64,000 nt of DNA from NCBI RefSeq assembly GCF_934307085.1, contig NZ_CAKRCF010000001.1:1-64000 (forward strand), written 5' to 3'. Source of the DNA: an uncultured Anaerobutyricum sp. (GTDB lineage: Bacteria; Bacillota; Clostridia; Lachnospirales; Lachnospiraceae). The translations under genes were made by a program, and so were the position numbers. Under the pieces are notes generated by a model. The model was given only the letters and a program-made list of their open reading frames with translations. It made no database searches and was not told the DNA's origin. The number at the start of each line of letters is the position of its first letter. Position 1 is the stretch's first letter. Positions 4,390 through 60,330 of this stretch are shown here, piece after piece.

Positions 4390-4475
4390 AAAAGATTTTT
4401 TTAATTCTGGGTTGACGCAGGCAAGACTGACGCCCCAAAGAGAGTCTATCCCCTATATTTGTAACTTTAGTCTCT
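4390..4475. repeat. Family-2 palindromic element, truncated copy
   Basis: Within the 379-bp gap between the TrpR-like gene and the PAP2 gene lies CCCCTATATTTGTAACTTTAG (about 4450-4470), matching the left arm of family 2 (compare CCCTATATTTGTAACTCTA at 20166). No matching right arm follows, so the copy is truncated. The rest of the gap is AT-rich and holds nothing else recognised apart from the promoter region of the PAP2 gene. Confidence 0.5.
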
Positions 4476-11879: not shown

Positions 11880-12093
11880 ATCTGCCTAATATCTGATATG
11901 TCACTCCATCATCACAATTATAGAGAATTTGGACTGCTTTTTTCGAAGTTTCTGTTTTATTGGGCAAAATGGAGCGTTTAGCGCAACAGAACAAAATGAG
12001 ATAAATTTTTTAGTGCTTCTACTCAATAATTCTTTAGGCAATCCGTTCTCCACTTTCCTTATAGCGGCGTCTGCCTGTTCTACAATCTCACAA
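11880..12093. repeat. Family-1 palindromic element, copy B (left half decayed)
   Basis: The right half is clear: CGAAGTTTC, TTATTGGGCAAAATGGAGCG, TTTAGCGCAAC, then CAAAATGAGATA and TTTTTTAGTGC, GGCAATCCG, and the end TAGCGGCGTCTG with TCTACAATCTCACAA. The arm CAAAATGAGATA matches copy A at 24732, so A and B belong to one subtype. The left arm is missing. The end overlaps the last codons of recJ and provides its TGA stop at 12088-12090. Confidence 0.75.
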
Positions 12094-16439: not shown

Positions 16440-16600
16440 TTCAATTCAGCAACAAGCAGAAAAACGAAAAAGCAGATATCCTATATTTGTGGCCTTAGAG
16501 CGAGGATTGAATGTGAGCCCGGAGGCGAACATTCAACCCGCAGTGATAGAATCACAAATATAGGATATCTGCTTTTTCGTTTTTCGTCTGTCCCGCTAAC
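16440..16600. repeat. Family-2 palindromic element, complete copy 2a
   Basis: Arms 16461-16493 and 16555-16587 are perfectly complementary over 33 bases, ending TATATTTGTG / CACAAATATA at the loop. The 61-base loop begins GCCTTAGAGCGAG and holds an inner stem TTGAATGT / ACATTCAA and ends GTGATAGAAT. It lies in the 453-bp gap after yajC. The rest of that gap (16184-16440) is AT-rich with nothing recognised. Confidence 0.85.
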
Positions 16601-20115: not shown

Positions 20116-20284
20116 TACTATTTAATTCATTAAGAACTAACAGACATTCCCAAAAGCAGGAAATACCCTATATTTGTAACTCTATCGCTTACGGGTTGAA
20201 CGCTCGTCTCCGCACTCGTATTCAATCCATACTCTAAGACCACAAATATAGGGCATCTTCTATCTTTGACTGTTTTTAGTTGGA
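20116..20284. repeat. Family-2 palindromic element, copy 2b
   Basis: Arms AAATACCCTATATTTGT and ACAAATATAGGGCATCTT are largely complementary. Read on the minus strand the loop runs GTCTTAGAGTATGGATTGAAT ... TTCAACCCGTAAGCGATAG, matching copy 2a base for base at the conserved places, with inner stem TTGAATAC / GCGTTCAA changed on both sides. It fills the gap between nagA and rsmE. Its left flank TACTATTTAATTCATTAAG is shared with copy 2c. Confidence 0.8.
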
Positions 20285-21637
20285 TCAGATAGCACTCCCA
20301 TCTTTGATAACAGTTTTTAAGACAAGGTCTTTATCTATCAAAACAATATCTGCTTTTTTCCCCACACTGATAGATCCTCTCTCATCATAGACTCCAAGGC
20401 TGATGGCCGGATTTTTTGTGGCACAGGCTATTGCTGTTTCTAACGGGATTCTCATTTTTGTTACAGCCGTACGCATACAGTCTGCAAGGTTAGTAACGGA
20501 ACCTGCCAATGCACCATCTGAAACTAAAGTAGCTCTGTTTCCTCTCACTTTTACATCCAAACCTCCTAATGTATACTGTCCATCAGGCATTCCTGTTGCT
20601 CTCATGCTGTCACTGATAAATATCATACGCTCTGCCCCCATCATTTTAAATACCGCCCGTACCATTGATGGATGAATGTGAATGCCATCGCAAATAATTT
20701 CTGCCATTACATGTTCACTATCAGATACTGCACCAACAACCCCTGTTTCTCTATGAGTAAATGCAGGCATTGCATTAAATAAATGTACCGCATGATTTGC
20801 TCCTGCATCAAATGCTGCTTTGGCTGACTCATAGTCCGCATTTGTATGTGCCAGAGAAATATTAACTTTATCTTTCATATTTTTAATAAAGGAAATTGTA
20901 TTATCACTTTCTTCCGGTGCAATTCCTATAAATTTAACTAGATTGTCAGAAGCATCTAAAAACTTTTCCGCAACTTCTTTATTACATGGAATGATATTTC
21001 TCTCATCCTGTGCACCTTTTTTTACTGGACTGATAAATGGTCCTTCCATATTAATACCGACAAAATCTGCTCTTTTTTTCCCTTTTTTCTTTTCACAAGT
21101 TTTTGGAGTTGTAGAATTTTCATCCATTATATTCCCCTGTTTTACCTTCGTGTTTTGTTCTTGTCCAGATTCATCTTCAAATTTTTCGTCGCTACAGGCT
21201 AACTCTTCTTCATACTCTTTTTTATAAATAACCGCTGTTTTTAAAATGTTTTCAAGTTCTTCTACTGGCAATGTCATTGTTGCTGGGGCAATTGCTGTTA
21301 CACCAACACTTGCTTCATATTCTGCAATACGACGGATCGCTTCTTTATCTCCATCACAGAAATCATCTCCCATGCATCCATGAAAATGCAAATCAATAAG
21401 TCCTGGAATCGCATAGGCACCATTTCCATCTAATATATTGTCTATACCATTTTGTACCGAATATTTTATTGTGGTATGCTGTGTTGTAAAATGTTGCATT
21501 TCTATGTTCATTTTTTTGAATATTTCTTCTTTCTCTGCTTCGGTATATATTTCTATAATCCTGTCTCCCTGTGTGACAATTCCACCCGAGACAAAGTTTC
21601 CTGCTTCCGTATAGACTTTTACATTATCAATTATCAT
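20285..21637 (-). CDS. nagA: N-acetylglucosamine-6-phosphate deacetylase
   Basis: A 450-residue amidohydrolase turning GlcNAc-6-P into GlcN-6-P and acetate. Signatures are IPGLIDLHFHGCMGDDF (metal-binding His pair), VGINMEGPFIS, LAHTNADYESA and ISDSMRATGMPDG. It is about 60-70 residues longer than usual: a polar stretch near residues 40-62 (FTTQHTTIKYSVQNG) and a Lys/Glu/Asn-rich insert near 145-190 (DESGQEQNTKV ... KTCEKKKGKKR) account for it. Both are probably surface loops. It is last of the nanE-RpiR-nagA group. The ribosome site is weak. Confidence 0.93.
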   Translation of the reverse strand: MIIDNVKVYTEAGNFVSGGIVTQGDRIIEIYTEAEKEEIFKKMNIEMQHFTTQHTTIKYSVQNGIDNILDGNGAYAIPGLIDLHFHGCMGDDFCDGDKEAIRRIAEYEASVGVTAIAPATMTLPVEELENILKTAVIYKKEYEEELACSDEKFEDESGQEQNTKVKQGNIMDENSTTPKTCEKKKGKKRADFVGINMEGPFISPVKKGAQDERNIIPCNKEVAEKFLDASDNLVKFIGIAPEESDNTISFIKNMKDKVNISLAHTNADYESAKAAFDAGANHAVHLFNAMPAFTHRETGVVGAVSDSEHVMAEIICDGIHIHPSMVRAVFKMMGAERMIFISDSMRATGMPDGQYTLGGLDVKVRGNRATLVSDGALAGSVTNLADCMRTAVTKMRIPLETAIACATKNPAISLGVYDERGSISVGKKADIVLIDKDLVLKTVIKDGSAI

Positions 21638-23815: not shown

Positions 23816-24541
23816 ATGAGAATCTACAAAGCAACCGATTATAACGATATGAGCAGAAAAGCAGCAAATATTATTTCTGCACAAATCATTATGAAACCTG
23901 ATTGTGTTCTTGGTTTAGCTACTGGCTCTTCCCCAGTAGGAACTTATAAACAGTTAATCGAATGGTACAACAAAAACGACCTTGATTTTTCTGAAGTAAC
24001 AAGTATTAACTTAGATGAATACAAAGGATTAAGTCCAGAAGATCCACAGAGTTACCGTTATTTCATGAACACACATTTATTTGACCATGTAAATATTGAT
24101 AAAAATCGTACTTTCGTTCCAGACGGACTTGCAATCGATCCAGAAAAAGCCTGTGCAGAGTACAATGCAAATATTATCAAACAGGGTGGTATTGATTTGC
24201 AGCTTCTTGGAATCGGAAGAAATGGACATATCGGATTTAATGAGCCAGGTGCTGCATTTGAAAAAGAAACACACTGTGTAGATCTTACAGAAAGCACTAT
24301 CGAAGCAAACAAACGTTTCTTTGCTTCTGAAGCAGATGTTCCACGTCAGGCATACTCTCTTGGAATCAAGAATATTATGCAGGCTAGAAAAATTCTGGTT
24401 ATCGTAAGCGGAGAGGATAAGGCAGATGCTTTATATAATGCTGTTCATGGAAAAATCACTCCTGCTGTTCCAGCTTCTATTCTGCAGCTTCATAACGATG
24501 TCACAATCGTTGCGGATGCCGATGCGTTAAAAAGATTCTAA
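23816..24541 (+). CDS. nagB: Glucosamine-6-phosphate deaminase
   Basis: A 241-residue enzyme turning GlcN-6-P into fructose-6-P and ammonia, delivering amino sugars to glycolysis. Signatures are LGLATGSSPVGTYKQL, NLDEYKGL, and LGIGRNGHIGFNEPG with the catalytic acid and His. GAGG lies eight bases before the ATG. It is transcribed away from nanE-RpiR-nagA but completes their pathway. The stop TAA is immediately followed by the left end of palindrome copy A. Confidence 0.97.
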   Translation: MRIYKATDYNDMSRKAANIISAQIIMKPDCVLGLATGSSPVGTYKQLIEWYNKNDLDFSEVTSINLDEYKGLSPEDPQSYRYFMNTHLFDHVNIDKNRTFVPDGLAIDPEKACAEYNANIIKQGGIDLQLLGIGRNGHIGFNEPGAAFEKETHCVDLTESTIEANKRFFASEADVPRQAYSLGIKNIMQARKILVIVSGEDKADALYNAVHGKITPAVPASILQLHNDVTIVADADALKRF

Positions 24542-24908
24542 TTTGTCGTGTTAAACAGACGCCGCTAAGAAAGAATAAGCAGCCAGAGTGCCAGAAAATC
24601 TTGGAAAGGCACTAAAAAAAGTATCTCATTTTGTTCCGTTGTGCTAAACGTTCCATTTTGCCCAGTAAAGCAGAAACTTCGGAAAAATCAGTCCGAAGTT
24701 TCTATGGTCAAAATTCCACAGCACAAAGTCTCAAAATGAGATACTTTTTTTAGTGCCTACTTCATTTGCTTTGTGCACTCTGGCAGAAATTCTTCTAATA
24801 CGGAACAAAATGCAATCTTAGAATAATCCCTCTCTTAGAAGTCATCGATACAATCCGACCCTAAATATCTCCGCAGCAGCGTTTGTCATCAAATCGACAA
24901 ATCAGAAA
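24542..24908. repeat. Family-1 palindromic element, complete copy A
   Basis: A 367-bp element filling the space between the stops of nagB and trpS. Outer ends ATTTGTCGTGTTAAACAG and the diverged right end ACAAATCAGAAATTA; next stem GCCAGAGTGC / GCACTCTGGC; then a perfect 26-bp stem, 24608-24633 with 24732-24757; inner stem GAAACTTCGGA / TCCGAAGTTTC. Conserved bases around the inner stem (TTAGCACAACGGAACAAAAT on the minus strand) match the other copies. Both ends touch a stop codon. Confidence 0.88.
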
Positions 24909-27394: not shown

Positions 27395-27545
27395 ACTATT
27401 TAATTCATCAAGAATAGATACTCCAAAAGAAAGAATCCATATTTGTGGTCTTAGAACAAGAGAAAATATTATATAAGATATTTTCCTCATAGCAATAAAA
27501 TCACAAATATGGATTCTTTCTTTTCTGGCTTCATCGGCTATATAT
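27395..27545. repeat. Family-2 palindromic element, copy 2c
   Basis: Arms AAAAGAAAGAATCCATATTTG and CAAATATGGATTCTTTCTTTT are perfectly complementary. The loop begins GTCTTAGAACAAG, holds inner stem GAGAAAATAT / ATATTTTCCTC and ends AATAAAATCAC. Compared with 2a both stems have other sequences, but the bases between them are kept. Left flank ACTATTTAATTCATCAAGAA matches copy 2b. It lies past the dnaJ stop. Confidence 0.82.
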
Positions 27546-34635: not shown

Positions 34636-34845
34636 TTATAAAACGCTATACCATAGCACAGTATCCTTTAAAACCTGCATAATTCTACACAGCATATTGA
34701 GCATTTTTCTATAATAGCCATTCTCAGAAGCCTTTGCCAAAGATACATCATATTCATCTAATAGAAGAATGACTAGTTTATTATAATAACCAAATAATAA
34801 TTGGGAGTAAACAGTCGCTGTAAAAGTTTTCAGGTCGGATTGCAC
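34636..34845 (-). pseudogene. Fragment of an AAA-ATPase-like/PD-(D/E)XK protein
   Basis: A 69-residue frame containing KLVILLLDEYDVSLAKASEN and GYYRKMLNMLCRIMQVLKD. This matches the Walker-B region (LLDEYDxPLAKAxENGYY) of the large AAA-ATPase-like family with a C-terminal nuclease domain that is common in Lachnospiraceae and often present in many copies. The Walker A and nuclease parts are missing, so it is a relic. It lies between palindrome copy C and kptA. Confidence 0.65.
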
Positions 34846-35074
34846 AAAAACTACAAGAAAAAGAATCCCTAAAAATATTCCATTTTATGATTTTGTGCTG
34901 TGGAATTTTGACCATAGAAACTTCAGACTGCTTTCTCCGAAGTTTCTGCTTTATTGGGCAAAAGGAACGTTTAGCACAATGGAATATTTTTTAGGGATTC
35001 TTTTCTAAATTCTTCGGGCAATCCGCTACAGATTTTTTTGTAACGCGTCAACTTTGCCTGCGACAACTCAGAAG
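34836..35074. repeat. Family-1 palindromic element, copy C
   Basis: CGGATTGC / GCAATCCG outermost, then AGAATCCCTAAAAATATTCCA with its complement (one extra A), then TTTTGTGCTGTGGAATTTTG, inner stem GAAACTTC / GAAGTTTC, and TTATTGGGCAAAAGGAACG with TTTAGCAC. The right end ACAACTCAGAAGTCA runs into the TGA stop of lepA (35075-35077), at the same place as in the other copies. Confidence 0.85.
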
Positions 35075-41639: not shown

Positions 41640-41749
41640 TTTGAAAAAACGCTTGAAAAATCTTCCCTTTTTTGACTTTATGCTGTAAAATCCTGGCATA
41701 GGAACTTCGAACCCCTCCACAGCAACATCTGTCTACAACAACCCAGAAT
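41640..41749. repeat. Family-1 palindromic element, decayed copy G
   Basis: TTTTTTGACTTTATGCTGT, AAAATCCTGGCATAGGAACTTCG and the end ACAACCCAGAATTCA are recognisable, but the right arm of the main stem is lost. The end runs into the TGA stop of holA (41750-41752), the same alignment with a stop codon as in the intact copies. It lies between convergent rpsT and holA. Confidence 0.65.
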
Positions 41750-51306: not shown

Positions 51307-51529
51307 TTTCTTCACTCCTTGCTTAGTTAACTACAAACTTCAACTATATAAATCCTCTATTATATCTACTATCTGAATTTTTCAGTGCTTGATTTTGTGA
51401 GAAAATTTTTCGTTAGTTGTGCATAAATTTTTTGAGGCGTACGCGGAATGTATGTTGATGAAATTTAGGGGCAACTGGCGGAAAATTAGCCACAAAAGCG
51501 TGTGCTGAAAAGCTCATATAGTACATTTT

Positions 51530-52426
51530 CTAAAAAAGAGGCTCTTTTAAAATAGCTGTACCAATACCTTTTTCTGTAAAGAATTCCAGAAGCAGGCAGT
51601 GTGCTACACGCCCATCTAAGATATGTACTCTGGAAACGCCCTGTTCAATTGCGTCAATACAGTTATTCAGTTTCGGAAGCATACCGCCGCCAACAACGCC
51701 ATTCTCGATAAATTCTTTTGCTGTCTTAATATCCATCTCAGAAATTAATGTCTTCTTGTTTGTTGGGTCAATAAATACACCTTCAATATCTGTAAGAAAT
51801 ACAAGTTTTTCTGCATCCATTGCTTTTGCAACACCACAGGCAGCATCGTCTGCATTGATATTGTAAGCGTTGAATTCATCATCAAGACCGATTGGAGCGA
51901 TTACTGGAATAAAGTCATTGTCCATTAATGTATTTAACAAATCTGTATTTACAGAAGCAACTTCTCCTACAAATCCAATATCCTTGCCATCTGGCATTTT
52001 CTTGTTGACACGGATCATATTTCCGTCTTTACCACAAAGACCTACGGCATTAACACCCATCTTCTGCATCAGACCAACAAGCTCTTTATTTACTTTATTT
52101 AAAACCATTTCTGCAATGTTCATGGTCTCTTTATCTGTCACACGCAGACCATTATAAAATTCTGGTTCTTTTCCACTTAATTTTACCCATTTGCTGATTT
52201 CTTTTCCACCACCGTGAACGATAATCGGACGCATACCAACTAATTTCAGTAATGCTACATCTTTGATAACATTCATCTTTAACTGGTCATCAAGCATTGC
52301 ACTTCCGCCATATTTTACAATGATTGTTGCTCCATTAAAACGACGGATATAAGGTAATGCCTCAATCAGCGTATTGGCTTTCGTCATAATTTCATCTACG
52401 TTCTTGTTAATTTCCATCTCTGCCAT
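51530..52426 (-). CDS. argB: Acetylglutamate kinase
   Basis: A 298-residue kinase phosphorylating N-acetylglutamate, the usual control point of arginine synthesis. Signatures are [38 protein letters not shown] and [10 protein letters not shown]; the C-terminus [20 protein letters not shown] is followed by the usual G-G/T region. The N-terminal helix ([20 protein letters not shown]) is typical of arginine-inhibited forms. It follows argJ by 31 bp and argD follows after 223 bp with nothing recognised between. Confidence 0.95.
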
Positions 52427-55285: not shown

Positions 55286-56515
55286 ATGAGTAAAGAAAAA
55301 GTGGTTTTAGCCTATTCAGGTGGTCTTGACACTACCGCAATCATCCCTTGGTTAAAAGAAACATATGATTATGACGTAGTATGTTGCTGCGTTGACTGTG
55401 GACAGGGCGAGGAGCTTGATGGATTAGAAGAACGTGCCCTCTACTCCGGTGCTTCTAAGTTATACATTGAAGACATCACAGATGATTTCTGTGAGAACTA
55501 CATCATGCCATGTGTACAGGCAGATGCTGTATACGAGAATAAATACCTTCTTGGAACTTCTATGGCTCGTCCAGGAATTGCTGCTAAGTTAGTAGAAATT
55601 GCCCGTAAAGAGAACGCAGTTGCTATCTGTCACGGCGCTACAGGAAAAGGTAACGACCAGATTCGTTTTGAACTTGGTATTAAAGCTTTAGCTCCAGACT
55701 TAAAGATTATCGCTCCATGGCGTGACGACAAATGGCAGATGGACTCCCGTGAAGCTGAGATTGAATACTGTAGAGCACATGACATTCACCTTCCATTCTC
55801 TGTAGATAACAGCTACAGCCGTGACCGTAACTTATGGCACATCAGCCATGAAGGTCTTGAACTTGAAGACCCTGCATGTGAGCCAAACTATGACCACTTA
55901 TTAGTATTAGGTGTTTCTCCTGAAAAAGCTCCAGATGAACCAGAATATCTTACAATGACATTCGAAGCTGGTGTTCCTAAGACAATCAACGGCGAAGAGA
56001 TGAAGGTTGCTGACATCATCCGTAAATTAAACGAATTAGGCGGAAAGCATGGTATCGGTATCGTTGATATCGTTGAGAACCGTGTTGTAGGTATGAAGTC
56101 CCGTGGTGTTTATGAAACTCCAGGTGGAACAATCCTTATGGAAGCTCACAGACAGTTAGAGGAACTCGTACTTGACCGTGACACTATGGCAGTAAAGAAA
56201 GATATGGGTAATAAACTTGCTCAGGTTGTATACGAAGGAAAATGGTTCACACCACTTCGTGAGGCAATCCAGGCATTCGTAGAATCCACACAGAAATATG
56301 TAACTGGTGAAGTGAAGTTCAAACTTTACAAAGGTAACATCATCAAAGCTGGAACAACTTCTCCATACAGCCTTTACAGCGAAACACTTGCTTCCTTTAC
56401 AACTGGAGATCAGTATGATCACCATGATGCAGAAGGATTCATCACATTATTTGGACTTCCATTAAAGGTTCGTGCGATGAAAATGCAGGAGTTGGAGAAG
56501 AATCATAGTAAATAA
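55286..56515 (+). CDS. argG: Argininosuccinate synthase
   Basis: A 409-residue enzyme joining citrulline and aspartate with ATP. It starts with the PP-loop region KVVLAYSGGLDTTAIIPWLK; other signatures are GATGKGNDQIRFELG and SVDNSYSRDRNLWHISHEG. AGGAGG lies nine bases before the ATG. Its base use is richer in GC third positions than its neighbours, a sign of high expression. Its stop TAA is followed at once by palindrome copy D. argH, its pathway partner, lies 6.9 kb downstream. Confidence 0.97.
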   Translation: MSKEKVVLAYSGGLDTTAIIPWLKETYDYDVVCCCVDCGQGEELDGLEERALYSGASKLYIEDITDDFCENYIMPCVQADAVYENKYLLGTSMARPGIAAKLVEIARKENAVAICHGATGKGNDQIRFELGIKALAPDLKIIAPWRDDKWQMDSREAEIEYCRAHDIHLPFSVDNSYSRDRNLWHISHEGLELEDPACEPNYDHLLVLGVSPEKAPDEPEYLTMTFEAGVPKTINGEEMKVADIIRKLNELGGKHGIGIVDIVENRVVGMKSRGVYETPGGTILMEAHRQLEELVLDRDTMAVKKDMGNKLAQVVYEGKWFTPLREAIQAFVESTQKYVTGEVKFKLYKGNIIKAGTTSPYSLYSETLASFTTGDQYDHHDAEGFITLFGLPLKVRAMKMQELEKNHSK

Positions 56516-56813
56516 TTTTGATTTGTAAGACTGAATAGACGCTACTGTAGATGAGTTTGTGACCGGATTGCATCGTTAACTTCTAAAAGAGGGACTAAAA
56601 AATATCCCCTTTTGAGCCTTTGTGCTGTAGAATTTTGACCATAGAAACTTCGCATTCGTTTCTGCAAAGTTTCTGCTTTACTGGGCAAAATGGAATGTTT
56701 AGCACAGCAGCTCAAAAGGGGATATTTTTTGATCTCTCTGTTCAATATTACTTCGGGCAATCCGACTATAACTGCCTTTATAGCGGCGTCTGTTCAACTC
56801 TACAAATCAGGAG
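56516..56813. repeat. Family-1 palindromic element, complete copy D
   Basis: A 298-bp element between the stops of argG and the recombinase-like gene. Ends GATTTGTAAGACTGAATAG and CGTCTGTTCAACTCTACAA are inverted repeats; then CCGGATTGC / GCAATCCG; a perfect 20-bp stem, 56597-56616 with 56711-56730; inner stem GAAACTT / AAGTTTC; and the conserved TTTGTGCTGTAGAATTTTG and TGGGCAAAATGGAATG. Both ends abut stop codons. Confidence 0.9.
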
Positions 56814-57221
56814 TTACAGATTGTTTTTCTCAATATAGATGTCTATGTATTTCATCGCATCTCTTCCATGGTCTGCTGTTAGAAATTCCATGTCCTGAGA
56901 ACGAACATATTTATAGAATTTAATCAGAAGTTCTTCATTGATTGTAATGTTATTCAGTCCGTAACACATGACTACATCTAATTCTTTTTTCTTGATAGCT
57001 TCCATGATACGACGAAAGCTTGGTCTGTCTGTGTTCTCCGAATCATATTGTCCAAAATCTGTATAATGAAGAAACTCACAATTCTCTTTTCCATAAATTT
57101 CTTCTGCTACTTCATGACATTTTTCATAGGATTCTACCATCTCCTGAATAAAATGTCTGTAACATAACTTGCAGGCGCCTCTATAATATTGATAATGATA
57201 AATACCTATTCTCTTTTTCAT
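56814..57221 (-). CDS. Serine-recombinase-like protein lacking catalytic residues
   Basis: A 135-residue protein resembling only the resolvase catalytic fold. It shows IGIY at the start, FLHYTDFGQYDSENTDRPSF, RRIMEAIKKKELDVVMCYGL and FLTADHG, matching D.G.SG..DRP.F..ml..i..g..D.vv.y.l in serine recombinases. The nucleophile region (usually RVST) reads HYQYY, and the usual LDRLSRN reads LNNITIN, so the catalytic Ser and Arg residues are gone. The DNA-binding half is absent. It could be a domesticated or decaying protein. The gene's stop touches palindrome copy D. Confidence 0.6.
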   Translation of the reverse strand: MKKRIGIYHYQYYRGACKLCYRHFIQEMVESYEKCHEVAEEIYGKENCEFLHYTDFGQYDSENTDRPSFRRIMEAIKKKELDVVMCYGLNNITINEELLIKFYKYVRSQDMEFLTADHGRDAMKYIDIYIEKNNL

Positions 57222-57395
57222 TTTTCCACCCCGTTCATTTGTGTAAATACATACCTAATTACTGTTTATTATAAAGCAAGAGGCAATCTGATATAGATAC
57301 AGATTCACACAAAGTATGGGAAATTTAAGACTCAAAACAGCTCCTTTTTATAATTTTTTATGTAAATTCTTTTTTACTTCTATAGTTCACCTGTT

Positions 57396-57548
57396 TTATC
57401 TGGCACATCTATTTTCTGTAATCCAAACTTTTGTTGCAGTAGATTTAGCTCGTCCCTCAGAGATATGAACATGAATAGATTCTAATGGATTACCTTCATT
57501 AGACCAAAAATAAATACTGTACGGTCCAATTCTAAGAAGTTGCGGCAT
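57396..57548 (-). CDS. Truncated DUF4160 protein
   Basis: A 50-residue frame starting MPQLLRIGPYSIYFWSNEGN and continuing PLESIHVHISEGRAKSTATK. It matches the first half of DUF4160 proteins (usually 80-110 residues), which often pair with DUF2442 in toxin-antitoxin-like modules. The family's PPHIHV reads LESIHV here. A strong ribosome site GAGGGGG lies eight bases before the ATG. The second half and a partner gene are missing, so it is a remnant or a minimal version. The rest of the 57222-57702 gap shows no other gene. Confidence 0.65.
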   Translation of the reverse strand: MPQLLRIGPYSIYFWSNEGNPLESIHVHISEGRAKSTATKVWITENRCAR

Positions 57549-57655
57549 TTAAAACGCCCCCTCTTGCGAAAACTCTATAATAAGATGCGCATTTTTACGA
57601 ATCAAGCCGGCAAAAAATACACAACAACACTTTTGAAACTAGATGGACGGAACAT

Positions 57656-57671
57656 TAGAGTGTGTTTGAAA
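57656..57671 (+). repeat. Short dispersed motif R3
   Basis: TAGAGTGTGTTTGAAA, identical to the copy at 42788, 32 bp past the stop of the helix-turn-helix gene. Confidence 0.5.
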
Positions 57672-57702
57672 AAAACACAGTCATTCTATGAACTTCAACT
57701 TT

Positions 57703-58404
57703 TCAATCAGAATTTTTACTGTCATTTTCTTCTTCCCATTCTTCCTTCCTCGTTTTTGACTGTATGATTGCCACACCAACTACTATAATAAATCCAATAA
57801 TTATTTCCAGACCTATTGCCACACTTTCCCCCATGCTCATACCTTGAAATATATTCATCCTTTCCTTTGATGCTACTGGAAATATCACCCACAAGAATCC
57901 TACAGCTGCTTCTATTCCCTGTATCCATTTATTTGAATTACGCAATTTTCTTTCTGGCATTTTTTTATCAAGATAACACATACAGAAAAAAACTACTGCT
58001 GCCAAAATCCAGTAAATTATATTTATTCTATTAACAGACGGCCATTTTTCAGATAATTGAAATGGCAGCATGAGCAATTCTAAACTTACAAATTCAAGAA
58101 TATAAATTACCGCTTGTACTCCATAAAGCTGTTTTTCGTCAAGGGCAGTAAGTAACATTTTTTCTGTTTCTTTTTTATATTCTTTTTCCTGTATTTTTTC
58201 TCCCGCAAAGAATTCACCAATACTTATATTTAATTCTTTACAAAGAGATTCTATTATTCCAACATCCGGTATAGACCTTCCATTTTCCCATTTTGAAACC
58301 GCCCGGTCTGTTACGCCCAGTTTTTCTGCCAGCTCTTTTTGTGTCAAATTCAGATTCTTTCGATTTTGTGCTATGAATCTTCCGACTTTTATTGGCTCAA
58401 CCAT
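57703..58404 (-). CDS. XRE-family regulator with membrane domain
   Basis: A 233-residue protein. Residues 1-70 are a Cro/C1-type helix-turn-helix (RKNLNLTQKELAEKLGVTDR, AVSKWENGRSIPD). A linker is followed by four hydrophobic segments (AVIYILEFVSLELLMLPF, IIYWILAAVVFFCMCYL, AAVGFLWVIFPVA, IGLEIIIGFIIVVGVAI). Such membrane-bound XRE proteins are common in Lachnospiraceae, with unknown signals. AGGAG lies upstream of the ATG. It sits in the accessory islet. Confidence 0.82.
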   Translation of the reverse strand: MVEPIKVGRFIAQNRKNLNLTQKELAEKLGVTDRAVSKWENGRSIPDVGIIESLCKELNISIGEFFAGEKIQEKEYKKETEKMLLTALDEKQLYGVQAVIYILEFVSLELLMLPFQLSEKWPSVNRINIIYWILAAVVFFCMCYLDKKMPERKLRNSNKWIQGIEAAVGFLWVIFPVASKERMNIFQGMSMGESVAIGLEIIIGFIIVVGVAIIQSKTRKEEWEEENDSKNSD

Positions 58405-58518
58405 ATTTTCACGCTCCTATAAAATGATAGTCTTTATTTCCAAATTTATATTCAGAAATCTTGTTTTCGATATAAATATCCTAACATATTTATGGTAAAA
58501 TCGCACTCTACTATCAGT

Positions 58519-58822
58519 TGAATTCTGATTTACCGCATGCAAGGCTAACCATCCGCTATAGCTGTTTTTATCGGATTGCTCAAAAAATTAAAAAGAAGGC
58601 CTTATTATAAGCTTGAATTTTGTGACTTTGCGCTGTGGAATCCTGACTGTAACCTTGCGAGCTCGTTTTCGAGCAAGGTTCTCTTATCAGGCAGGATGGA
58701 ACGTTTAGCGCAACGGAACAAAATCAAGCTTATAATAAGGCCTTCTTTTTTATATTTTTTGAGCAATCCGCCTATAGATTCTTCTGTAGCGGCATCTGTT
58801 TTGCAATCTCACAAATCAGGAT
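58519..58822. repeat. Family-1 palindromic element, complete copy E
   Basis: Outermost perfect 17-bp stem 58572-58588 with 58754-58770, then a perfect 27-bp stem 58590-58616 with 58724-58750, then TTTGCGCTGTGGAATCCTG, inner stem AACCTTGCGAG / CTCGTTTTCGAGCAAGGTT region, and GGCAGGATGGAACG with TTTAGCGCAACGG. The inner stem differs from the other copies on both sides. The right end CACAAATCAGGATTTA supplies the TGA stop of the membrane protein gene at 58816. Confidence 0.9.
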
Positions 58823-59223
58823 TTAAAAAGCGTCTCCCTTATCACATCATCCATCCAAATACATAACGGAGTAGCCAAAAACCATATAATAAGAAACGGA
58901 ATACAAATCTGCCCTCGATAATTAAAAGGAACTTTCGAGTAATCCCACACATGAAGCTTTAAATAAATATTCACAATAACTCCAGTCAGATATTCATAAG
59001 AAATGATAATAAGGCTCCCCAATATCATTTGAAAAAGAAAGGAAGGATGCCACTTTTTCCCTTCATTTAATAAACCAATCGTATAGAAAGATAATCCCCC
59101 GCAAATAATCATAGATACATGAGAATATCCCCGATATAAAATCTCAAAATTAAAATATGCCATTCCCCCAAAGCTAATAAGAAATAATGGTTGCACTATT
59201 TTTGTTCTTACAAAATCTCTCAT
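58816..59223 (-). CDS. Putative ABC transporter permease, PF06541-like
   Basis: A 135-residue membrane protein with four hydrophobic segments and the signature LLNEGKKWHPSFLFQMILGS, followed by YEYLTGVIVNIYLKLHVWDY and PFNYRGQICIPFLIIWF. This matches the family described as putative ABC-transporter type IV membrane proteins, whose function is unknown; no ATPase gene is adjacent. Its last codons and TGA come from the end of palindrome copy E. About 88 bp separate its start from copy F. Confidence 0.75.
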   Translation of the reverse strand: MRDFVRTKIVQPLFLISFGGMAYFNFEILYRGYSHVSMIICGGLSFYTIGLLNEGKKWHPSFLFQMILGSLIIISYEYLTGVIVNIYLKLHVWDYSKVPFNYRGQICIPFLIIWFLATPLCIWMDDVIRETLFKS

Positions 59224-59310
59224 TCTCTGCCGCTCCTAAAACACAATTTTTATTGTGAATAGTATTGGCAGAGTGAAATTTTCTATACTAAAAAGTTCCA
59301 GTGCAAAAAC

Positions 59311-59607
59311 TTTTGATTTGTAGGATTTAGAGAAAACAGCCGTTACAAAAGTTTTTTGCCAGATTTTACAAAGAATTTCGGAAAAAGAAACATAAAAATA
59401 TCCTATTTTGCGACTTTGTGCTGTGGAATTTTGACCATAGGAACTTGGGACTCCTTTCTCCCAAGTTCCCGCTTTACTGAGCAAAATGGAGCGTTTAGCA
59501 CAACGGAACAAAATAGGATATTTTTTATGTTTCTTATCTAAATACTTCTGAAAATCCGGCTACAATATCTCAAATGGTGGCGTATGCTCACCCCTACAAA
59601 TCAGGAT
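59311..59607. repeat. Family-1 palindromic element, complete copy F
   Basis: A 297-bp element. Left end TTTTGATTTGTAGGATTTAG; arms AGAAACATAAAAATATCC with complement (one extra base) and CTATTTTG / CAAAATAG; then TTTGTGCTGTGGAATTTTG, inner stem GGAACTTGGGA / TCCCAAGTTCC (changed on both sides against copies A and C) and TTTAGCACAACGGAAC. The right end CTACAAATCAGGATTTA contains the TAA stop of the ABC ATPase gene (59608-59610). Confidence 0.9.
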
Positions 59608-60330
59608 TTACAATACTTTGGAAAGGAACTCCTTCGTTCTGGCTTCCTTCGGATGCTCAAAGATATCCTCCGGTGTTCCCTGTTCAAGAATTCTTCCTTC
59701 ATCCATAAACATAACACGAGTTCCAACTTCTTTAGCAAATCCCATCTCGTGGGTTACTACTGCCATAGTCATTCCCTGATCAGCAAGGTTCTTCATTACT
59801 TCTAATACCTCACCTACCATTTCTGGATCAAGTGCAGATGTTGGCTCGTCAAAGAGCATCATCTTCGGTTTCATGGCAAGGGAACGCACAATAGCAATTC
59901 TCTGCTTCTGTCCACCGGATAACTGTCCTGGATACGCATCTGCCTTTTCCTCTAAGTTAACTAACTTAAGGAGACGAAGTGCCTCTTCTTTCGCTTCTTC
60001 TGGTTTCATTAACTTAAGACGTACTGGTGCAAGTGTAATATTCTCCATAATCGTCTTATGTGGGAAAAGGTTAAAATGCTGAAATACCATTCCCATATGC
60101 TGACGTACTTTATTAATATCTGTTTTCGGGTCGGTAATGTCAATACCATCAAAGATTACCTGTCCAGATGTTGGACGCTCTAAAAGGTTCATACAGCGAA
60201 GGAATGTTGACTTACCGGAACCGGATGGTCCGATGATAACGATTTTCTCGCCGGGAGCGATATGTTCATTAATATCTTTTAATACCTGATGGTCTCCAAA
60301 AGATTTGCATAAATTCTTAACGTATATCAC
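59608..60330 (-). CDS. Polar amino-acid ABC transporter ATP-binding protein
   Basis: A 240-residue ATPase of the GlnQ/ArtP/HisP group. Walker [11 protein letters not shown] loop [13 protein letters not shown], signature LSGGQKQR, Walker [13 protein letters not shown], switch VTHEM. Start is GTG, overlapping the permease gene end by 14 bp, so the two are coupled. With the permease and binding protein upstream it forms an importer. The amino acid cannot be named; arginine-gene neighbours suggest but do not prove it. Confidence 0.93.

Follow-up and report, generated by a model that had tools for sequence, protein, structure and literature searches.

In a 64,000-nt stretch of DNA from an Anaerobutyricum sp. 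(the window), a glucosamine-6-phosphate isomerase family gene and a tRNA-synt_1b gene converge on a gap that is occupied in its entirety by one long palindrome, copy B, and the TAA stop codon at 24539-24541 runs into the palindrome end TTCTAATTTG (here and throughout, gene calls are simple open-frame calls). Copy B is one of a genuine family of long DNA repeats that fold, carried by Anaerobutyricum gut bacteria and here referred to as family 1 (Table 1). An earlier note on this DNA had described a family of seven such palindromes in the window. The family is real; however, in a profile search only six of the seven (A, B, C, E, F, and G) contained the shared core of ~105 nt, copy A without the 5' half and with a weaker score, and copy D is a fragment. 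The core motif TTTGTGCTGTGGAATTTTG occurs five times in the window at up to three mismatches, compared with 0.05 times expected in shuffles, and the core motif GGGCAAAATGGAACGTTTAGCACAACGGAA three times, compared with none expected.

Family-1 elements are 130-370 nt in size. In complete copies, a variable main stem with A/T-tracts surrounds the core, and on the gene strand the element reads CTRATTTG...ACAGACGCCGC; the terminal inverted repeats CTRATTTG and CAAATYAG pair with each other when B, E, F, and G are folded. Several unpaired bases of the core are conserved, namely GAC/CGGA, GGA/GGA, a GUUU bulge on the 3' side, and the apical AUA/UGUUUUA loop. The statement in the earlier note that no named family has this layout agrees with the absence of any Rfam match in the window at curated scores. 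For copy B, a low threshold brought up two plant microRNA precursor models, both scoring well under their cut-offs, which we rejected as hairpin resemblance.

Table 1 Family-1 copies and family-2 palindromes in the window
Feature	Position	Strand	Profile match to core	Longest perfect stem run (bp)	Description
Copy A	11910..12087	+	11920; profile positions 45-129 only	none of 12 or more	3' part only; 5' arm and 5' half of core missing; 3' end abuts stop of RecJ-type gene
Copy B (element under study)	24542..24908	-	24618-24748, minus strand	27	Complete palindrome; core 24617-24749
Copy C	34824..35074	+	34871	17	Complete core; 5' end poorly defined; 3' end abuts stop of lepA-type gene
Copy D	41655..41733	+	41656; 60 nt, profile positions 2-62, E 1.3e-6	none of 12 or more	Fragment of 5' half of core
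Copy E	56516..56813	+	56598	21	Complete palindrome; fills gap from argininosuccinate synthase gene to convergent gene
Copy F	58519..58826	+	58607	27	Complete palindrome; 3' end overlaps TGA stop of gene 58816-59223
Copy G	59310..59611	+	59394	17	Complete palindrome; 3' end adjoins TAA stop of ABC transporter gene 59608-60330
Family 2	4420-4475				Member or remnant
Family 2	16459..16585	.			Member with 33-nt perfect arms; same end plan (ACAGACG)
Family 2	20142..20287	.			Diverged palindrome
Family-2-like	27425..27524	.			Palindrome with 29-nt arms and altered core

We compared the window with the draft genome of A. hallii DSM 3353 (G001) and with a one-contig genus mate (G004), in which longer matches around the window copies have 82-94% and 70-94% identity, respectively. 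Collecting copies in relatives with a covariance model, as the earlier note had proposed, brought further copies in both: at least 22 family-1 matches in G001, one being the weak reverse strand of another (that is, at least 21 copies), and at least 52 in G004 with weak ones included (~50 copies). The counts are lower bounds, as a ceiling of about 143-150 scored candidates applied to each genome and G001, whose contigs often end inside palindromes, is undercounted. Among the matches listed, the model gave none in 22 other Anaerobutyricum genomes and, under stricter filters with 11 candidates scored per genome, none in 298 sampled genomes of the bacterial family. In a collection of named genomes (84,980 species), the exact core pattern occurred only in A. 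hallii DSM 3353, in 15 stretches; viral contigs did not contain the exact pattern, and phage and plasmid collections gave no family-1 match with blastn. As far as searched, family 1 is confined to one branch of Anaerobutyricum, and we found no description of such repeats in this genus in the open-licence literature. Along the G004 chromosome, copies appear by eye to crowd at 0-0.9 and 2.2-3.5 Mb and to be sparse between 0.9 and 2.2 Mb; they lie on both strands in both halves, with no replication-strand bias as judged by eye. The intergenic stretch at window positions 51364-51536 is a different repeated element, for which both G001 and G004 have many matches at 77-83%.

Position behind stop codons and terminator features

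Counting open frames of at least 100 codons, we found that 35 of 76 copies have an opposite-strand stop codon 80-109 nt beyond the 3' edge of the core and that 4 of 73 have one at this distance from the 5' edge, while 1498 random positions gave no peak; the copies are related, so that most such counts are not independent. The preference for one end argues for an orientation and a spacing beyond what gene avoidance gives. As judged by eye, 31 of the 35 have an element end (on the gene strand CTAATTTGC, TTCTGATTTG, or a sequence close to these) that starts 0-13 nt past the stop codon or overlaps it, the stop is inside the element end in L063 and L090, and L091 and L097 have no clear element end. 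All six window copies having a 3' end belong to the 35 and lie behind nagB-, recJ-, lepA-type and other genes. The preferred distance is absent from the other 41 copies, many of which are in longer islands.

Gaps between the simple gene calls hold 12 of 15 copies in G001 and 46 of 54 in G004 and the window together; as expected of MITEs, the elements are thus multiple, short, intergenic, and without coding capacity. Convergent gaps harbor 25 of the 40 placed G004 copies and 6 of the 12 placed G001 copies, with a background of 62 convergent gaps among 416 gaps in G001. The 3' arm contains a T-tract (7 of 8) in 50 of 67 copies (8.6 expected) and the 5' arm an A-tract in 41 of 67 (14.6 expected), with both tracts in 37 copies; the expectations come from base shuffles and the copies are related. 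With a T-tract in one arm and an A-tract in the other, either strand would present a hairpin followed by a run of U, and behind a gene this is the layout of an intrinsic terminator. A terminator scan, restricted to loops of 3-8, returned none in 56400-59700. Because the tracts coincide with a place behind stop codons and in convergent gaps, bidirectional termination is a likely effect of family 1. Neither this placement nor the T-tracts nor the sister families described below had appeared in the earlier note.

Sister families and probable turnover at gene ends

Family 1 belongs to a set of hairpins that have a common end sequence and docking place and different cores. The palindromes of family 2, with the core GTGACTTTAGTCGC...TTGCTCCGAGGCCAC, gave at least 150 matches in G001 and at least 123 in G004; among the matches listed, there were none in the genus outside these two (22 genomes), and there were none in the 298 other genomes of the bacterial family (stricter filters, 14 candidates scored per genome). 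On the gene strand, many copies of families 1 and 2 begin CTRATTTG...ACAGACG. In an alignment of 63 family-2 copies from fetched sequence, nearly all from G001 (A5), the arms pair at 79-100% for 29 positions, at 49% at position 30, and at 8% at position 31; 43 of 64 copies have arms 29 or 30 long. Arms of at least 20 nt (n = 54) fall into 34 clusters, and the cores are 85% alike on average. A same-strand stop lies 40-69 nt from the 5' side in 34 of 59 family-2 copies and from the 3' side in 4 of 57. In most family-2 copies, no such tract adjoins the stem (T in 10 of 63 copies, A in 9 of 63, at 6 of 8), so that termination does not follow for the whole group. The core of family 3, CTCTGTAGTCGCTGT, occurs 28 times with arms in all fetched sequence; in 340 kb of G004, 25 palindromes include 10 with this core, whereas in 195 kb of G001 none of 20 has it. 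At the G004 loci L059, L077, L083, and L085, family 3 stands beside family 1 in composite intergenic islands, with arms of ~30 nt behind TAGACG.

Individual copies of these families show further features. In most rows of A5, the family-2 core has a non-standard paired change, TTTAGTC occurring with CTCCGAGG and TTTCGTC with CTCCCAGG (L141 is an exception), which suggests a putative non-Watson-Crick contact. A family-2 copy in G001 (L148:1428-1531) has its 3' core half replaced by the inverted 5' half, with mismatched arms, and is likely a chimera of two copies. In G004 (L092, near 925, minus strand), two family-3 arms pair with 802 nt between them, where ~40 is usual, which could reflect an insert or two copies. 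In G001 (L116:751-1500), another repeat with the ends TAGAGCGTGTTTGAAAAA..TTTTTCAAACACGCTCTAG lies inside the apical loop of a family-1 copy.

Looking for empty sites in related strains, also proposed in the earlier note, revealed that sites differ between relatives but not a clean pre-insertion site with target duplication; nearest to one is site F in G001, which lacks the element and also ~25 flanking bases common to the other two genomes. Where the window has copy B, ~90 nt containing a plain terminator stand in G004, and a pair of different palindromes in G001. At sites C, D, and E, a relative carries family-2 palindromes, and at site G both the window and G004 carry family 1 with different stems and apical class. 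For the G004 copies L059, L077, and L083, family 2 occupies the matching place in G001 or lies near it. The copies L036 and L078 lie at orthologous places with the stem kept, so that some copies are old; L066 (G004) and L157 (G001) have a common stem, most of the core being lost in G001; and L061 and L030 have the same core with different arms and a duplicated flank in G004. A family-4 copy in G004 corresponds to a short core-less hairpin in G001, the stem differing by a paired change. In a 195-kb comparison, both flanks could be placed in G004 for 5 of 20 G001 palindromes: one is a shared family-2 copy with two single-sided, uncompensated changes in its arms, two, whose family is unclear, face a plain terminator, and two lie in gaps of other content. 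From these alignments, we favor a turnover at fixed places in which elements would be gained, replaced, or deprived of their core to leave a simple hairpin.

Many of the sites in G004 hold family-1 copies that hardly differ along the ~250 nt of arms and core; together with the differences between sites, this argues for mobility. Our main reading, to which we assign a probability of roughly 0.6, is that family-1 elements are non-autonomous, MITE-like mobile hairpins. Such a hairpin would move as a unit, its folded core would be recognised by an enzyme supplied in trans, and its 3' end would settle directly behind the stop codon of a gene on the opposite strand, where the element would replace a plain terminator and, with T-tracts flanking its hairpin on either strand, would probably stop transcription arriving from both sides. 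The position behind stop codons and the T-tracts also accord with immobile terminators formed in place, that is, ordinary hairpins that grew or were enlarged by recombination between copies and whose core is kept because a host protein binds it. This alternative is in line with the copies common to two species with the stem kept (L036/L078 as well as L066/L157), and the occurrence of different apical hairpin classes on otherwise similar elements indicates that modules are exchanged. Nonetheless, it is unlikely: it does not predict the near-identical copies at many G004 sites, the 22 other genomes of the genus in which none was found must also terminate transcription, and a stop codon that adjoins a copy in one species is followed in its sister species by a plain terminator or a member of another family.

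Folding and paired changes in the core and arms

Copies B, E, F, and G each fold end to end, with z values of -10.6 to -12.8 against dinucleotide shuffles and RNA folding energies of the core strand of -105 to -146 kcal/mol; because copy B is a palindrome, its opposite strand folds almost equally well (z -12.4). The earlier note had given perfect main stems of 26, 20, and 27 bp for copies lettered A, D, and E; these lengths are right within one base if the letters stand for our copies B, E, and F, but not for the copies labelled A and D here (Table 1). Its remark that these stems have nothing in common does not hold, because 25 of 33 aligned columns are the same in B and E (with a common CTAAAAAA..TAT block), 20 of 33 in B and F, and 18 of 33 in E and F. 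Its observation that inner stems change on both sides is borne out in the window copies.

The covariance model was built from 15 core copies and applied to 67 sources, giving 79 matches (alignment A4). In A4, 96.6% of cells are paired under the model structure compared with 87.6% after shuffling and 39-48% under slid structures, figures that lean towards the structure because the alignment was fitted to it. Leaving aside the apical hairpin, the core has 28 pairs, of which 22 show changes on both sides among 76 distinct rows (three weak ones included). To allow for kinship among copies, we used a tree of 73 rows based on unpaired columns only, without three duplicate rows and the weak rows L095 second strand, L083:3685, and window 11878; on this tree, the 28 pairs require 97 or more changes of one Watson-Crick pair into another, a count that recombination among copies would inflate. 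Such recombination does occur, as apical hairpin classes are shuffled across otherwise similar elements. On the core strand, G.U outnumbers A.C by 42 cells to 8 in the inner core helices (summed by hand) and by 49 to 22 in all 28 pairs; the excess in the inner helices points to one folded strand, either RNA or single-stranded DNA. In the family-2 core, the corresponding numbers are 101 and 19, mostly at two pairs.

The long outer stems have G.U and A.C in 20 and 18 cells in the window and in 30 and 43 in G001 (together 50 and 61), and in 50 and 141 in G004; these counts include 9 of 70 copies with a stem alignment that is empty or one base long, and four copies without anchors, among them the second strand of L095, were left out of the stem work. 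With G.U about equal to A.C or below it, copying of one DNA arm from the other explains the pairing there as well as selection does. The earlier note had read paired change as a sign of selection for folding, and for the core the two-sided changes, the switches, and the G.U excess uphold this, while for the outer stems arm-copying is an equally good explanation. We conclude that the core looks to be under selection as a folded single strand and that the long stems need not be.

If template switching in a quasi-palindrome were the main source of paired changes everywhere, the elements would be self-perfecting DNA repeats with no need for selection on folding. At L095:1195-1340 in G004, the asymmetric inner loop of a core copy has indeed given way to a sequence exactly complementary to the opposite strand, which makes an exact palindrome; template switching has therefore been active at least once and explains how long arms remain perfect. 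The outer stems and the family-2 arms (G.U 21, A.C 15) show no G.U preference, and homogenisation of inverted-repeat arms has been described in yeast and for RNA hairpins (PMC8604942, PMC8794818). As the main source, however, arm-copying is quite improbable: it would erase the GGA/GGA mismatches and the GUUU bulge, yet most copies retain both, and it accounts neither for the G.U excess of the inner core helices nor for the single-sided arm changes in the orthologous family-2 pair. The persistence of core mismatches despite template switching suggests that the mismatches matter. Last, the core strand lies antisense to the gene at whose stop the element ends. We give little credence to the idea that it is transcribed against this gene and folds into a functional RNA or antisense regulator, because, for all the covariation, conserved unpaired purines, and G.U preference of the core, the window has no Rfam match, promoter-like sites in 56400-59700 show no clear excess (17 compared with 12.7, sd 3.9, in shuffles), and the window copies adjoin unrelated, largely housekeeping genes.

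Proposed mobility and docking, and known systems

Returning to mobile hairpins as our main reading, we searched for a carrier enzyme. None of 13 matches to the Y1 transposase family (PF01797; six in G001, seven in G004) is flanked by two cores within the flanks covered (1.5 kb or less); one has a partial core nearby and the others only matches of 18-33 nt. The partial core belongs to a truncated copy, L113, which adjoins a presumed IS605-type pair of genes; we take this proximity as chance, and IS200/IS605 elements were rejected as carriers. A scan of ~1 Mb for cores with cargo gave none for family 1; it paired only 8 of 59 family-1 5' halves. Inside the loops, no cargo was recognised, the family-3 pair at L092 aside. 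By eye, no transposase was seen in a 3.9-kb insert at site F or in a 5.3-kb insert at site E, and the latter contains open frames that are putative PD-(D/E)XK nuclease genes. Some family-2 copies resemble GTTRRRY/RYYYAAC, the integron attC consensus; we rejected an attC-like site, the pattern being broken in the commonest version, GGTTTGAATG.

We also considered that cores insert into the loops of existing terminators. Family-2 arm sequences have 27 matches outside detected copies in ~1 Mb, and those inspected are diverged or truncated family-2 copies, except for one 17-nt match in L135. Because the inspected matches are, with that exception, family-2 copies and related copies share arms, the arms seem to travel with the core, and core insertion was rejected.

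A broader scheme, which we regard as speculative and rather unlikely, is that hairpin elements with at least three structured cores use one docking system. They would be inserted by position and strand behind stop codons, an enzyme would recognise the folded single strand, and the arms would be of controlled length (29-30 bp in family 2) and free in sequence because, at each move, one arm would be made anew as a copy of the other. If true, transposition would here be directed by stop codons and guided by structure, and it would place hairpins, some of them terminators, at the ends of genes. A bacterium with hundreds of gene-end hairpins that prefer the same side of the stop codon and the same strand provides a direct test case for how mobile DNA settles harmlessly and takes over transcription termination. 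Moreover, the free stems and constant core allow selection for folding to be separated from template-switch homogenisation, a standing question on long hairpins.

Among known systems, SPRITE, BOX, and RUP have another host, Streptococcus pneumoniae, and are not known to resemble our elements in sequence. In one review, they are described as MITE-like, short intergenic repeats, clustered and nested in one another, SPRITE being terminator-like (PMC10969869). The Anaerobutyricum family differs in its preferred orientation and distance behind stop codons, a term that does not occur in that text, and in its variable stems around a conserved core. According to the same source, MITEs are small, mainly intergenic, AT-rich, and folding, with inverted repeats (PMC10969869), whereas here the palindrome runs end to end. 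The REPs, related through RAYT to IS200/IS605, resemble our elements as extragenic palindromes, up to hundreds in number, in which pairing is kept by complementary changes and the hairpin is possibly recognised (PMC2817692). By the same account, REPs are short, have a GTAG/GTGG-type head, and flank a rayt gene (PMC2817692), whereas the Anaerobutyricum elements have the length given above, end in CTRATTTG..ACAGACG instead of such a head, and do not flank as a pair any of the Y1 genes matched in G001 and G004. Finally, inverted pairs of DNA uptake sequences behind genes are reported to act as terminators (PMC1852404, PMC2267715), and they share with the Anaerobutyricum elements the repeated inverted motif pair at this place, whereas the latter hold a structured core of 105 nt in the loop.
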